Assembly (NCBI GenBank): GCA_009693115.1
Contig: SHXW01000017.1
Location: 1-56,120, forward strand
DNA from: Dehalococcoidia bacterium
Lineage (GTDB): Bacteria > Chloroflexota > Dehalococcoidia > Lucifugimonadales > Lucifugimonadaceae
DNA: 56,120 nucleotides
Direction: 5' to 3'
The notes under the pieces are model-generated. The model was not told the origin of the DNA and did no database searches. It was given only the letters and a program-made list of their open reading frames with translations. Positions 30,154-42,824 of the stretch are shown one piece after another. Made by a program: the position numbers and the translations under genes. The stretch's first letter is position 1. The number at the start of each line of letters is the position of its first letter.

Positions 30154-33114
30154 TTACGTCGTCGGTATTGACTGCACCGGGATGATTTGCGCGAAGTACC
30201 GTCCTTCCGGCATGGCGCCGTCGCCTGCAAGTTCGGCGGAGTTTACTCCAGACGCAGACTCCACGTCGTGGATCACGGGCCGGAGCAGGGCGACGCCGGG
30301 AGCATCCGAAACAAGCTTCAGATTCGAGAGGGGCGCTCCGATACTGATACCTGCTTCGGTCTTGGCCTTGCGGACGGCGGCAATGGCCTCGCACGCGGCC
30401 TTGAAAGACCCTGCGTTGGCAGGCGCAGTGACGGACGAGAGGGTGTGGTTGGAGGGCATGGCATCGACCCGCTCCCTCTCCGTCTCACCAATAGGGTGAG
30501 GGGAGTTGGGCCAGGGCGCGGTGTGGACAGACGGGACGCCGGTCTCAGCGGCGAATGCCCATGACCAGACCTCGTCGCAGATATTCGGCGTGAATGGGGC
30601 GAAGAGCCGCAGGAACGTGGAAAGGCTCAGGCGCAGTGTGGAGACCGCCGAAGCGCGACCCGCGGAGTCGCTCTCTGACCGAGCGCGGGCTTTTACAAGC
30701 TCGATGTAGTTGTCAGTAAACCCGCTCCAAAAGAACGACTCTGCGAATTCCAGCGCCTGCGCGAACTCGAACCGATCAAAGGCCTCGGTGGCCTTCCGGG
30801 CGACCTCCTGCAGCTCGGCGATGTAGGCGCGGTCAAGTTCGTTTGTGATGGCGGTGTGTTTTCCCGCCCCAGTTGACTGGTGTGAGGAGTGATTGCCAGG
30901 CCGTTCGGCGGCCTGAGGTTGCGGGGACTGCTGCAGCACAAACTTCCCGGCGTTGAACAACTTCGTCACGAGCCGCTTGCCGACCTTGAACACCTGCTCG
31001 TCGAAAGCTGTGTCCATCCCCAACCGGGCAGACGCCGCCCAGTAGCGCACGCCATCCGCTCCGTATTGATCAAGCAGGTGGTGCGGTGTCACGACGTTGC
31101 CCTTGGATTTGGACATCTTCTTGCGGTCCGGATCCAGGATCCAGCCCGAGATCACGACGTTCCGCCACGGCACGTCATCCTGATGCAGCATCGCTTTGGC
31201 GATAGTGTAAAAAGCCCACGTTCGGATGATCTCGTGGCTCTGCGGCCGCACGTCCATCGGAAATAGCTCGGCCATGTGATCGTCAGCCTCGCCCCAACCG
31301 CTGACGATCTGCGGCGACAGTGATGACGTGAACCATGTGTCGAAAACGTCCGGCTCGCCAGTGAACCCGCCCGGCTTGCCGCGCTGCGACTCGTCGTACC
31401 CGTGCGGCGTCTGCGTCATGGGATCAACGGGCAACTGATCGGGTCGGGCCACGATGGGCTGGCTGTAATCGGGGACGCCCTCACCGTTGAGCCGGTACCA
31501 GACCGGGATGGGCACGCCGAAATACCGTTGACGTGAGATGCACCAGTCCACGTTAAGGTTCTCGACCCAGTTCTCGTATCGCTTGCGCATGAAGTCCGGG
31601 TGCCACGCGATGCGGCGTCCCATTTCAAGCAACCTGTCCTTTTTGTCAACGAGACGCACAAACCACTGGCGAGTCGTCAGGTATTCGAGTGGCGATTCGC
31701 CTTTCTCGTAGTAGCGGACGGCGTGTGTGACGGGCTTTGGTTCGGCGATTAGCGGAGCGCGAACACTCACGCCCGGACCCTCTCCCTGCAAGGGAGATGG
31801 AATAACTGAAAGAGCGCTGTTCGAAGAGTCGCGCAGCATCTCGACAACCGCGGCCCGCGCCGAGGGAAGCCGCTTGCCGACGAGCTTCATGTAGTTCGCG
31901 TTGGCCTGCTCCGGCCTGTCGCTGTCCCACCCGGGCGAGCCGAATGTACGAGGCAGCACGCGCCCGTTCTTGCCTACCATCTGACGCAAGGCCAGTTTGT
32001 GTTCGCGCCACCAGACCACGTCCGTCTGGTCGCCGAACGTACATACCATCAGGATGCCTGTGCCTTTTTCCCTGTCCACAAGCTCGCTTGCGAATATGGG
32101 TACGCTGGCGAAGAAGACGGGCGTGATCGCGTGCCTGCCGATCAGGCCCTTGTACCGCGTGTCTTCGGGATGTACAGCCACGCCCACACATGCCGCGAGA
32201 AGTTCCGGACGCGTGGTCGAAATGATGAAGGAGTTCTGTCCCACGTCCTGGACCGCTCCCTGTGAGGGGGAAGCGAGTTTCACCACCCCGAACTCTATGT
32301 CGTGGTACGCGCCCTGTTTCTCCCTGTCCTCCACCTCCGCCTGTGCCACCGCAGTCTGGAAGTCCACGTCCCACATCGTCGGGGCCTCTACCTGATAGAC
32401 ATGGCCCTTTTGCGCGAGGTCAAGGAAACTGCGCTGCGCGATGCGGCGGCAGCGATCGTCTATCGTGGCGTACTCTTCGCGCCAGTCTATGGACAGCCCC
32501 AGTCGTTGGAAGAGGTCGCGAAATATCACCTCGTCCGCGGCTGTTACGGTGTGGCAAAGCTCGATAAAGTTTTGCCGTGAGATCACGAGAGGCGCCTCAT
32601 CCTCCGGCCTGACCTTCACCCCCTTCGGCGCGCCCAGCACCGGGATGCCTGATGCCGCCGCAGTCTGCGCCGCGCCACCCTGATCCGTCACGCTCTGGGC
32701 TTGCCGATTGGCCTCATCCTTTCGCTCATGAACCGGCGTCAGGTTCAAACCGGGGCGGTAAGGCACCCCCGGCTCCGCCCGAACGTTGAAATAGTTCTGC
32801 ACCCGCCGCTCCGTCGGCAGACCGTTGTCGTCCCAGCCCATCGGGTAGCAGATGTTCCAGCCGCGCATGCGCCGGTAGCGTACGTTTACGTCCTGGTGGG
32901 TGTAGGAGAAGACGTGGCCCATGTGTAGTGACCCCGACACCGTAGGCGGCGGAGAGTCCACGACGAAAGACCATTCCCGTGGCGCGCTCCTATCGCGTTC
33001 GAAGATGTGCAGACGCTGCCACTCTGCGCGCCAGCGCGCCTCTGTAACAGCGGCGTCATAATTCTTAGACAACGCCGAAATGTCAGGTCCCCTGTTCTCA
33101 CCGTCCTGGGCCAT
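30154..33114 (-). CDS. valS: Valyl-tRNA synthetase with repeat-derived insertions
   Basis: A 986-residue class I synthetase. HMGH (residues 64-67) after SPPPTVSGSL, the editing domain (STTRPELLAACVGVAVHPED) and KMSKSKGN (about residue 664) identify ValS. The usual C-terminal coiled-coil arm is not evident, as in the shorter bacterial type. Three segments look like translated dispersed repeats: ASPSQGA at about residue 283, [11 protein letters not shown] at about 441, and PHPIGETERERV at about 875; a further low-complexity stretch (QQSPQPQAAERPGNHSSHQ) lies near 740. These inserts fall between conserved blocks, so the enzyme is probably active. The ATG at 33114 has AGGA upstream. Located 24 bases after the DUF1801 gene. 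Confidence 0.93.
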   Translation of the reverse strand: MAQDGENRGPDISALSKNYDAAVTEARWRAEWQRLHIFERDRSAPREWSFVVDSPPPTVSGSLHMGHVFSYTHQDVNVRYRRMRGWNICYPMGWDDNGLPTERRVQNYFNVRAEPGVPYRPGLNLTPVHERKDEANRQAQSVTDQGGAAQTAAASGIPVLGAPKGVKVRPEDEAPLVISRQNFIELCHTVTAADEVIFRDLFQRLGLSIDWREEYATIDDRCRRIAQRSFLDLAQKGHVYQVEAPTMWDVDFQTAVAQAEVEDREKQGAYHDIEFGVVKLASPSQGAVQDVGQNSFIISTTRPELLAACVGVAVHPEDTRYKGLIGRHAITPVFFASVPIFASELVDREKGTGILMVCTFGDQTDVVWWREHKLALRQMVGKNGRVLPRTFGSPGWDSDRPEQANANYMKLVGKRLPSARAAVVEMLRDSSNSALSVIPSPLQGEGPGVSVRAPLIAEPKPVTHAVRYYEKGESPLEYLTTRQWFVRLVDKKDRLLEMGRRIAWHPDFMRKRYENWVENLNVDWCISRQRYFGVPIPVWYRLNGEGVPDYSQPIVARPDQLPVDPMTQTPHGYDESQRGKPGGFTGEPDVFDTWFTSSLSPQIVSGWGEADDHMAELFPMDVRPQSHEIIRTWAFYTIAKAMLHQDDVPWRNVVISGWILDPDRKKMSKSKGNVVTPHHLLDQYGADGVRYWAASARLGMDTAFDEQVFKVGKRLVTKLFNAGKFVLQQSPQPQAAERPGNHSSHQSTGAGKHTAITNELDRAYIAELQEVARKATEAFDRFEFAQALEFAESFFWSGFTDNYIELVKARARSESDSAGRASAVSTLRLSLSTFLRLFAPFTPNICDEVWSWAFAAETGVPSVHTAPWPNSPHPIGETERERVDAMPSNHTLSSVTAPANAGSFKAACEAIAAVRKAKTEAGISIGAPLSNLKLVSDAPGVALLRPVIHDVESASGVNSAELAGDGAMPEGRYFAQIIPVQSIPTT
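30472..30510. repeat. Palindromic repeat inside valS (3' part)
   Basis: CTCACC-N5-GGTGAG core (30484-30500) with flanking CTCCC and GGGAG arms. On the minus strand it encodes SPHPIGETERE, a peptide typical of this repeat in its other frame. Confidence 0.55.
31778..31800. repeat. Palindromic repeat inside valS (central copy)
   Basis: TCTCCCT-GCA-AGGGAGA inverted repeat with further pairing outside one mismatch. On the minus strand it encodes IPSPLQGEG within ValS near residue 441. Confidence 0.75.
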
Positions 33115-33138
33115 GGTTCCTTTTCCTGCTCCTGGTGT

Positions 33139-33525
33139 TCAACTCTTCAGTGATGAGTCTTGCCTGGGCGGCAGTAACCCCATTGCCTGATCTGACGCCT
33201 CTTTGATGTACGGCCTGAGCTTCACGAACAGGCCTTCGTCATATTCCCATATCTTCACGTGACGCAGGCCCTTCCCGGTCCCTTCGATTACTCCGTCCGG
33301 GTCAGGCAGCGTGGCCCCGGAGAAGAAACCGAGGTGGACATAACGTTTCTGGTCGGCGATGTAGATCGCGTCCCTGCCCTTGGAAAAGACTGGGTTGCCC
33401 CACTTGATGGCTTCCTTGAACTTGGGGTCAACATCCAGCACCAATGTGCGGAGCCGTTCGGCGATGCGCCTGTGCTCGGGAGAAACCGAAGCCATCCACT
33501 CGTCAATGCTGCTTGCCTTGGGCAC
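33139..33525 (-). CDS. DUF1801 (YdhG-like) domain protein
   Basis: A 128-residue protein matching the DUF1801/YdhG fold: SIDEWMASVSPEHRRIAERLR, KEAIKWGNPVFSKG, YIADQKRYVHLGFFSGATL and GKGLRHVKIWEYDEG. Members are related to a Bacillus iron chaperone for frataxin-type function, but most are uncharacterised. The frame is open to 33699; the GTG at 33525 is preferred because AAAGGAGGGGAG sits eight bases upstream and homology begins there. It directly precedes valS, from which it is 24 bases away, so the two are probably cotranscribed. Confidence 0.8.
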   Translation of the reverse strand: MPKASSIDEWMASVSPEHRRIAERLRTLVLDVDPKFKEAIKWGNPVFSKGRDAIYIADQKRYVHLGFFSGATLPDPDGVIEGTGKGLRHVKIWEYDEGLFVKLRPYIKEASDQAMGLLPPRQDSSLKS

Positions 33526-33702
33526 GCAGGTCTCCCCTCCTTTGGTGACTTTCTCAGAATTCCCCCTCCACGTTAAGGTTGGCCGGGATCTGGTGAGGGA
33601 GAAGCATCCGGCACCCTCGAGGAGCTCTCTCAGTCCAGTCGTTGCGCCTCGGATTATCCCGCCGCAGGGCCACATCCTGACCAAATTGTGGCCCTTCACC
33701 AG

Positions 33703-39459: not shown

Positions 39460-40422
39460 TCAGGGCTGCTGGCTGAAGAGAGCGCCCACGGACAACCCGT
39501 TGTGTATGCGGTAGATCGCCTCACCAAGCATGTCCGCCACTGTCAGCACCTTGATCTTGGGAGTGATTTTTGACTGTGGGACCGGGATCGTATCTGTGAC
39601 GACGATCTCCTTGATTTCCGGTACCGCGCTTAACTTGTGCGATGCCTCGCCGGGCAGGATGGCGTGCGTGGCGCAGGCGTAAATGTCCGTCGCGCCCTCT
39701 TTCTTGAGGATGGAGGCCGCCGCGATCATGGAGCCGCCGGTATTGATTTCATCATCGAACAGAATGGCTGGCATCCCAGCCACATCACCGATGATGTTCA
39801 GGCTCTCTGCCATCTCTCTGTTGCCCACCCGGCGTTTTTCTATGATCGCCAGCGGGGCGTCTATACGCGCCGCGAAGTCGCGCGCCCTCTTGCTGATGCC
39901 TATGTCCGTCGCCACGACCACTGGCTCTTTCAACTTCTTATCCTGAAAATACTTCACGAGCTTCGGCAGAGATGTCAGTTCGTCCACTGGCACGGAAAAG
40001 AAGCCCTGCACCTGTCCGGCGTGCAGGTCCACCGTGAGCACGCGGTTGGCCCCTGCGGTCTCGATCAGGTCCGCCACGAGACGCCCGGTGATCGGCACGC
40101 GAGGCTGGTCTTTCTTGTCTGTACGCGCGTATGAGTAGTAGGGCAGGACCGCTGTGATGCGCCCCGCCGATGCGCGCTTGGCTGCATCGATGAAGATCAG
40201 CATCTCCATGATGTTGTCGTTTACCGGCGTCACGGTCGGCTGGATGATGAACACGTCCCGCTGCCGGACGTTGTCCATGATTCGGACGAATGTGTTGTCG
40301 TTGCTGAACTTAAACACATCGGACTTGCCGAGCGGGACCTTCAAGTATTCGCAGATGTGTTTCGCCAGCTCGGGGTGAGCATTGCCCGTGAAGATCGCGA
40401 GTTCGCCGAATGCGGTGAGCAT
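39460..40422 (-). CDS. prs: Ribose-phosphate pyrophosphokinase
   Basis: A 320-residue PRPP synthetase. Family blocks: FTGNAHPELAKHICEYL, SNDNTFVRI, IIQPTVTPVNDNIMEML, YYSYARTDKKDQPRVPIT, the divalent metal and ribose-5-phosphate site VDLHAGQVQGFF, and the PRPP loop DDEINTGGS. It makes PRPP from ribose 5-phosphate and ATP for nucleotide, His and Trp synthesis. The frame extends to 40488, but the ATG at 40422 is preceded by AGGAA at five to six bases. Downstream, 245 bases before secA hold no gene. Confidence 0.95.
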   Translation of the reverse strand: MLTAFGELAIFTGNAHPELAKHICEYLKVPLGKSDVFKFSNDNTFVRIMDNVRQRDVFIIQPTVTPVNDNIMEMLIFIDAAKRASAGRITAVLPYYSYARTDKKDQPRVPITGRLVADLIETAGANRVLTVDLHAGQVQGFFSVPVDELTSLPKLVKYFQDKKLKEPVVVATDIGISKRARDFAARIDAPLAIIEKRRVGNREMAESLNIIGDVAGMPAILFDDEINTGGSMIAAASILKKEGATDIYACATHAILPGEASHKLSAVPEIKEIVVTDTIPVPQSKITPKIKVLTVADMLGEAIYRIHNGLSVGALFSQQP

Positions 40423-40881
40423 GTGGTTCCTCATGGAGCGGTGCAGGCTACCGCCCGCGAGCAGCGGTGCAGCGAGATGGTGGGACAAGTATGGTACGGG
40501 AAGCTCTACACCCGCGGTACTGCACGTCGGCAGGCCCCAATTGGCCTTCTGTTGGATATCCGGCTGAACGGCCGGCGTCTGATCGGAGATACGCGCATGT
40601 GCAATTGTCGAGGGCTTCTACCGAAAGGCAAGTCGCGGGAGGTCCTGCGCTGAAACCACCGGGCACACGCCCCGCACGGGTCGTCGTCCATATGCGCGTC
40701 GCCACTGCATCTTGGGCAACCCATGAAGTGAAGCTACGGTCACCTTGTCCCGGCGTTTGGAGATCCTGCACCGAAAGGTGCGCCGGGGCCATCACCGCCA
40801 GTCCGAAGTTCCACCGTTTACAGCCTTCCAAAGTCTTGCGCCCATGCACGTGATTCAGGCCGGACTGTGCTGGTGCCGGTA
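40423..40881. other. Long gap between prs and the ArsC-like gene
   Basis: No credible coding frame on either strand; the long frames at 40448-40849 (minus) and 40467-40853 (plus) are Arg/Pro/Cys-rich and unlike any family. It contains the hairpin at 40749-40787. It may be a prs leader or hold a small RNA. Confidence 0.5.
40749..40787. other. Strong hairpin with GAAA tetraloop
   Basis: Outer stem CCCGGC/GCCGGG, one-sided 13-base bulge, inner stem GCACC-GAAA-GGTGC. On the plus strand the loop is the GNRA tetraloop GAAA. No U tract. Could be a processed RNA or leader element; function unknown. Confidence 0.4.
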
Positions 40882-41223
40882 CTACGGGCAGTACTGCCCA
40901 TCCTTGTACCCGAAGATGAGTGTGCCGTCCCTGACAAGGATTGGCCGGCGGATCAGACGCGGCTGCTCCGCCATCAGCTGGATCAACTCCTCATCAGAAA
41001 TCTCGCCCCGCCGGTCTCTGAGTCCCCCGGCGCTGGGGCTGTTCCATGAAAACATCTCATCCGGCGAACTCAAACCCGCCAGCGTGCGAATCTCTTCTAC
41101 AGAGAGCCTGTCCTTGAAAAAGTCCCGCTCTTCGTATGGAGAACCTGCTTGCGAGAGAGCCTCCCTCGCTTTTCTGCAGGTGCTTCACTTCGCCCAGTGA
41201 TAAAAAGTCATCGTTGCTGTCAT
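40882..41223 (-). CDS. Candidate selenoprotein, ArsC/Spx-like thioredoxin-fold protein (in-frame TGA)
   Basis: Read through one TGA (41185-41187) this frame gives a complete 113-residue ArsC/Spx/YffB-type protein: YHWAK-U-STCRKAREALS, then YEERDFFKDRLSVEEIRTLAGL, and a C-terminal EISDEELIQLMAEQPRLIRRPILV with the conserved arginines, ending at TAG. In the family the first residue of CxxC is the catalytic cysteine; here it is TGA, so the motif becomes UxxC (U13, C16). A stable stem-loop sits directly downstream as expected of a bacterial SECIS element. Start ATG 41223 has AGGGGTG seven bases upstream; ATG 41211 is an alternative. Related proteins reduce arsenate or control transcription by thiol switches. 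Divergent from an MFS transporter. The alternative explanation is a pseudogene with a point mutation. Confidence 0.75.
41143..41181 (-). promoter_or_regulatory. Candidate bacterial SECIS element
   Basis: Minus-strand hairpin starting four bases after the TGA: lower stem ACCTGC/GCAGGT (6 bp), a 6x2 internal loop, upper stem GCGAGGGA/TCTCTCGC (8 bp with one G-U) and apical loop GGC. The first loop G is 24 bases after the TGA. Bacterial SECIS elements have a small G-starting apical loop about 16-37 bases after the UGA, so the geometry fits. Confidence 0.65.
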
Positions 41224-41309
41224 GCGATCACCCCTGAACCCCCGTGTCTGGCGGGTACCCTCCTTCCCTGCGCGGGCGAGGGGTTGAAATATATCCTGAC
41301 GGCTTTTCC

Positions 41310-42824
41310 ATGCGCCTTTCATTTGCCGCACAACCGTTCTTGCGCGAGCATCGCGTAGTGAATTCTTCCAAGACTCTCGCTGATAGTGTCCCTGTTGCGG
41401 CGCAGCGCGGCAACATCCTCCTCCGCAAGGTGCCTGCGGTACTTGCCCCATGGCGGCGGGGTCCATCAAGCCTCACGAACCTAAACGCGTACGCATTCGG
41501 CCTGTCAGCCGTTTTTACAGGCGTCGGTTCGGGCGTGATGCCGTTGATGATCACCGGGCTTACTGACAGGGGCCGCATCCATTTCCTATGGATGGACATG
41601 GACAAAAACGGTGGCATCGCCATCGTGTCCCTCGCAGGCCTGATCATCGCCGCCCTCATACAACCGGTCGCTGGATATTTGAGCGACCGCTCGAACACCA
41701 CGCCTGGCCAGCGAACCCAGTTCCTGGCCGTGGGTGCTGTCGGACTCGGCCTGGCGGTATTGAGTCTGGGTTTTGCAGATGTTTTCCTGGCGATGCTGGC
41801 TGCCACCATAGCGATCCAGGTCTTTGGCAATATCATCCAGGGCCCGGCGCAAGCGCTCCTCATAGACCACGTTCCTCCTTCCCGGATGGGCTCTGCCGCT
41901 GGCCTGCTAAACGTCTTCAAGGTGGCCGGAGCTGGAATCGCCGTAGTTGCCGTTCTCCTGCTGATGAACAACTACCAGATCCGATTGAGGAACGGTGATG
42001 TCGAGGCGGCCCGGGTATGGCTATGGATTTCGCTTGTTCTGGTATTGATCGTCATGCTGATTAGCGTGGGGTGGACCAGCCTGTCCCTGCGGCACCGCAG
42101 GGCTGGAGGGGCCTTGCCCGCGTTTGCGCAAGACGAGCGGGACCTGCCATCTCGCACCGTCTCAGATGCCGCGGCGCCATCTGGCCCGAAGCCGACAACC
42201 CTGCGTGGTGAGTATCTGTGGTTCTTGGTGTCGCTGGTCTTCGTGGTAGGGGCAATGTCTGCCATGCAGGTTTATTCGATCCCTTTCCTTGAAGACGCTG
42301 TAGGCCTTGAGAACCCTGCTTTAGATGCGGCACTCCTTGCAATCGTTTTGACTGTCACAGCGGGCGCCGTTGCTGTCCCTGCGGGCAGGTTGCAGGACCG
42401 CTTCGGCCACCGGGTATTGCTGTTAGTTGCGGCCGGTTTCGGTGCGGCTGGAGCGCTCCTTCTACTCAGTGCGAGCGCCTTGGCCCACGTGTTATTGATA
42501 GGTGTGCCTCTGGGCATTGCCATCGGCATCTTCCTCAGCGTCACATGGGCGATGGCCAACGGTCTGGTGCCCAGGACTAAGGCGGCGCAGAACCTGGGCT
42601 ACACGAGCCTCGCCACCTTGTTGGGCGCTGTGTTGGGGAGGCTCGGCGGGCCAGGCATAGACGCGCTGAACGCCAATACGCCCAAGCTCGGGTACGACGT
42701 CATGCTTGGCATCGTAGCCCTGGCATTCATCATCTCGCCGTTGCTCCTCACGCGCGTCGGCGACGGGCCGGGAGGCCGGAAAGGCGCTCGGCAGGGGCGG
42801 GCGATACCAGAAGGGGACAGTTGA
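41310..42824 (+). CDS. MFS transporter
   Basis: A protein of about 504 residues with 12 predicted membrane helices in two halves and a long polar central loop (about residues 265-310). The MFS loop 2-3 type signature appears as YLSDRSNTTPGQRT and again as RLQDRFGHRV in the second half. The overall look, with a membrane start at NLNAYAFGLSAVFTG, recalls GPH-type sugar/cation or melibiose-like carriers. The start is uncertain: the ATG at 41310 has no clear ribosome site, and the sequence before it contains a palindromic repeat (about 41257-41284). Its TGA overlaps the ispH ATG, so the two are probably cotranscribed. Substrate unknown. Confidence 0.82.
   Translation: MRLSFAAQPFLREHRVVNSSKTLADSVPVAAQRGNILLRKVPAVLAPWRRGPSSLTNLNAYAFGLSAVFTGVGSGVMPLMITGLTDRGRIHFLWMDMDKNGGIAIVSLAGLIIAALIQPVAGYLSDRSNTTPGQRTQFLAVGAVGLGLAVLSLGFADVFLAMLAATIAIQVFGNIIQGPAQALLIDHVPPSRMGSAAGLLNVFKVAGAGIAVVAVLLLMNNYQIRLRNGDVEAARVWLWISLVLVLIVMLISVGWTSLSLRHRRAGGALPAFAQDERDLPSRTVSDAAAPSGPKPTTLRGEYLWFLVSLVFVVGAMSAMQVYSIPFLEDAVGLENPALDAALLAIVLTVTAGAVAVPAGRLQDRFGHRVLLLVAAGFGAAGALLLLSASALAHVLLIGVPLGIAIGIFLSVTWAMANGLVPRTKAAQNLGYTSLATLLGAVLGRLGGPGIDALNANTPKLGYDVMLGIVALAFIISPLLLTRVGDGPGGRKGARQGRAIPEGDS

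Follow-up and report, generated by a model that had tools for sequence, protein, structure and literature searches.

The window, by which we mean the whole stretch of 56,120 nucleotides analysed here (contig SHXW01000017.1 of a Dehalococcoidia bacterium), carries on its minus strand a gene for a small redox protein whose internal TGA is almost certainly decoded as selenocysteine (Sec) at the active site. We propose that this gene codes for a UxxC thioredoxin-fold oxidoreductase of the ArsC/Spx superfamily, that its UGA is decoded via SelB and a hairpin, and that by analogy with its family it would reduce a substrate. We give this reading a probability of about 0.97.

Read from 41223 to 40882 on the minus strand, the frame is MTATMTFYHWAK-TGA-STCRKA...GQYCP-stop; it has a single TGA, at 41187-41185, and its terminator is an ordinary TAG. 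Residue 13, which falls on the TGA, is the first member of the CxxC pair, and when the TGA is read as Cys the Pfam ArsC family (PF03960) matches residues 8-111 with an E-value of 5.9e-17. The earlier note on this DNA had placed a TGA at the catalytic cysteine of an ArsC/Spx-type frame, and this was borne out with the coordinates correct, the codon being the first residue of UxxC. It had also claimed that homology continues unbroken on either side of the TGA, which the Pfam match across the TGA and the conservation of the flanking frames among homologues confirm, and that a good ribosome site lies upstream, which is indeed seen as AGGGGTGA a few bases before the ATG. It was likewise right that gene callers would split the gene because table 11 gives a 94-aa ORF up to the TGA and a 63-aa ORF from the TTG at 41073. 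The features of the locus are collected in Table 1.

Table 1. Positions in the window of the predicted selenoprotein gene, its signals and its neighbours
Feature	Coordinates	Strand	Remarks
Predicted ArsC/Spx-like selenoprotein coding frame	40882..41223	-	113 residues, Sec at residue 13, stop 40882-40884
Proposed Sec codon TGA, first UxxC active-site position	41185..41187	-	
Plausible ribosome-binding site AGGGGTGA	41228..41235	-	read from sequence; few bases 5' of ATG at 41223
SECIS-like hairpin, 8-bp stem GCGAGGGA/TCTCTCGC, 3-nt GGC loop	41151..41169	-	loop 23 nt past TGA
Ribose-phosphate pyrophosphokinase-like gene, downstream	39460..40488	-	named by eye from sequence; syntenic marker common to relatives including Cys forms
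Divergent MFS transporter, upstream	41244..42824	+	syntenic marker common to relatives including Cys forms

The host genome (2.0 Mb in 40 contigs, rated 95.6% complete) was searched for selA, selB, selC, and selD, as the earlier note had advised, and all four are present. The scores are 554 bits for selA, 350 bits for selB, and 357 bits for selD, while tRNA-Sec with the anticodon TCA was detected by both the covariance model and ARAGORN; a second tRNA-Sec match above the cut-off was rejected as tRNA-Ser. The host selD (L052, contig C4) has an in-frame TGA of its own, in GLAACAGUAGK, at the known Sec site of SelD, and hence SelD is a predicted selenoprotein too. Within the window ARAGORN found no tRNA, and a codon-usage scan for further read-through TGAs gave no convincing second selenoprotein, although the scan is a weak test because it left the known case unranked as well. 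A long minus-strand frame with one TGA at 30154-33699 was discarded as a candidate selenoprotein because it consists of two ordinary neighbours, a DUF1801 gene ending in TGA followed in the same frame by a leucyl-tRNA synthetase-like gene.

Homologues were found in 33 of 60 related genomes, and they are 40-60% identical to the window protein on both sides of the TGA. When 30 homologous loci were read base by base, as the alignment proposed in the earlier note demanded, the codon was TGA in 27, whose genomes represent one family and many families across the order. The other three loci (L032, L034, and L035), with TGT or TGC, all belong to genus g10. Close pairs of homologues differ 3' of the TGA mostly by synonymous changes. 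One locus, L033, is UxxS, the TGA being kept and the resolving Cys replaced by Ser. All 33 genomes with a homologue have a SelB over the cut-off, so that a homologue is present in 33 of 48 relatives with such a SelB and in none of the 12 whose best SelB-like match falls short of it (Fisher p 1.2e-5, a value that ignores kinship and overstates independence since the 12 genomes come from few clades). A phylum-wide draw yielded a member in 35 of 301 genomes, and at 29 loci from it, which leave out the window's own and of which L068 sits in a genome shared with the first search, TGA stands at the codon in 27 and a Cys codon in two (L073 and L085). Most of the genomes compared are in many contigs and are probably metagenome-assembled. 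A scan of genome contigs for named relatives gave a single weak locus only, in Ulvibacter antarcticus. Single-contig genomes of 1.5-1.7 Mb from the same class as the host have 24-27 reductive dehalogenase matches, as is typical of Dehalococcoides and Dehalogenimonas; that the order is SAR202-like is no more than conceivable. The conservation of the in-frame TGA is far beyond chance, and the Sec form is the rule across the phylum with Cys groups nested inside it.

A conserved stem-loop 3' of the TGA, another check named in the earlier note, was also found. In the window the hairpin starts 15 nt past the TGA codon. The 27 TGA sequences align gap-free over the first 60 nt from the TGA, and in this alignment columns 19-26 pair with columns 30-37 around a 3-nt loop, with seven or eight of the eight pairs kept in 22 of the 27 sequences. 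The fraction of paired cells is 85.6% as against 74.4% in shuffles, and five of the eight pairs show changes on both sides, for example, from GCGAG/CTCGC to GTGAG/CTCAC to GTAAG/CTTAC. The covariation of 0.335 compares with 0.167, was reached by none of 500 shuffles, and is above that of all slid versions too. Since the stem lies within coding sequence, synonymous-codon recoding was used as a control: 1000 recodings of each sequence gave 106 pairs on average and never more than 125, whereas 185 of 216 are observed. Compensatory changes preserve the hairpin to a far greater degree than the encoded amino acids require. Its folding energy in the window is unremarkable (z of -0.93, and -0.67 relative to synonymous recoding). 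The bacterial SECIS model has a stem of 4-16 bp, a loop of 3-9 nt with a G in the first two loop positions, and a distance of 16-37 nt from the UGA (PMC13188914); the window hairpin, with 8 bp, a 3-nt GGC loop, and 23 nt, lies inside all these bounds. Rfam at gathering scores had no match within the window, which is no surprise given how short and variable such SECIS hairpins are.

In the three Cys versions of g10 the hairpin is degraded, just 1, 4, and 5 of the eight pairs being left. About half of the phylum-wide loci outside the set that defined the stem have the same stem. In genera g12 and g8 there are five exceptions (L024-L026, L038, and L045) whose hairpin is shifted by about 4 nt towards the TGA, and some members of family f50 (L069-L084) have one in a similar place, likewise about 4 nt closer. 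A single structure, therefore, does not fit all members, and this suggests that the SECIS element moved within the coding sequence. Taken as a whole, the comparative pattern supports decoding of the UGA as Sec and selection on the hairpin.

Could the TGA have arisen by simple nonsense mutation, or be a base-calling error for TGC or TGT? The Cys versions do carry TGT or TGC, one base off, but the gene is most improbably a pseudogene or an error because dozens of independent genomes have TGA at exactly this codon and conserve the rest of the frame. The earlier note had allowed that resequencing might reveal TGC or TGT at this codon; the independent genomes that carry the TGA exclude a sequencing error. 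It is just as hard to believe that the true product begins 3' of the TGA, with the TGA closing an unrelated frame on its 5' side. The TTG at 41073 could open the 63-aa ORF, but the 12 residues ahead of the TGA are conserved in frame (FYxWxR), the Pfam ArsC match runs across the TGA, and the active site would be lost from such a product. Lastly, a near-cognate or suppressor tRNA might insert a different amino acid, such as Trp or Cys, at the UGA. Our analysis found no evidence in support of such a tRNA reading the UGA, and we consider it highly unlikely because the genome has a complete Sec system, the codon stands in for the active-site Cys, a SECIS-like hairpin follows the codon, and no homologue occurs in the relatives with a SelB match under the cut-off.

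With the UGA read as Sec, we propose that SelA and SelD would make Sec-tRNA and that SelB, guided by the hairpin 15 nt past the codon, would bring tRNA-Sec to the ribosome so that the UGA is decoded. The attacking residue of the small thioredoxin-fold oxidoreductase would then be selenocysteine in a UxxC site, and, judging from its family, the selenolate together with the resolving Cys16 would reduce an oxidised substrate such as a disulfide.

The predicted ArsC/Spx fold is clear. Solved Spx and ArsC-like structures match the Cys-read protein at about 1e-12, and the PF03960 score is 62.2 bits against a gathering cut-off of 24 bits. The best named family is TIGR01617, the Spx/MgsR RNA polymerase-binding regulators, which covers nearly the whole protein and has a CxxC-type active site; the window protein scores 73.7 bits (1.4e-20), just under the curated cut-off of 75.05 bits, and has Sec for Cys. 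A regulatory role like that of Spx is conceivable. With the glutaredoxin-dependent arsenate reductases (TIGR00014; E. coli ArsC) it shares the superfamily, the position of the active-site Cys, and the RP motif, but it scores 33.6 bits where the cut-off is 106 bits, and the active site is UxxC and not CGTS. The arsenate-binding arginines of E. coli ArsC are Arg60, Arg94, and Arg107, and among these only the equivalent of Arg94 is present in the window protein. Because of these family scores and the absent arginines, arsenate reduction by the window protein is unlikely, and it is most likely an ArsC/Spx-fold thiol/selenol oxidoreductase. The genes next to it offered no hint of what it acts on.

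The earlier note had suspected that the family is not wholly new, and rightly so. A 2006 paper already lists ArsC-like selenoproteins (PMC1794560), and a 2008 paper lists 'Arsenate reductase 2' (cd03032, UxxC) with 42 Sec sequences from the marine metagenomes of the Global Ocean Sampling (PMC2398784). The window protein resembles the latter in motif and superfamily, being ArsC/Spx-like with Sec first in UxxC. More UxxC ArsC entries are given in reviews of 2022 (PMC9312934) and 2026 (PMC13188914). The 'Arsenate reductase-like protein' with UxxC (PMC13188914), like NF041106, the ArsC family (seleno)protein, is of the ArsC superfamily too, but the window protein belongs to another subfamily, scoring 27.1 bits against the NF041106 cut-off of 85 bits. 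Thus, the UxxC ArsC-like selenoprotein family is already known and the window gene is a well-supported further member. Among the papers of the library searched, none was found that joins SAR202 with selenoproteins.

Genus g10, which has the Cys form, retains selA and selB and shares both neighbours of the window gene, namely, the downstream ribose-phosphate pyrophosphokinase-like gene and the upstream divergent MFS transporter. Given these shared neighbours, the g10 Cys gene is very likely a true orthologue. In a maximum-likelihood tree of 49 proteins, built with the Sec/Cys column masked, both Cys groups fall inside the Sec sequences, and two Sec/Cys changes are needed, also when well-supported branches only are counted; the direction of change is inferred since the tree is midpoint-rooted. 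The most natural reading of this nesting is that Cys replaced Sec twice. We consider it probable, though with clearly less assurance than the decoding itself, that Sec is ancestral here in the phylum and that at least two replacements by Cys took place with decay of the SECIS, in g10 despite the presence of SelA and SelB, while elsewhere the hairpin moved by about 4 nt.

Wherever the gene has the Sec form, standard gene calling shortens it, which makes it easy to overlook a redox protein that is common in this mostly uncultured lineage. The occurrence of syntenic Sec and Cys versions in one family, all with SelA and SelB, offers a natural test of why selenium is retained or lost at a single active site, and the shifted hairpins hint at how a SECIS element can move inside a coding sequence.
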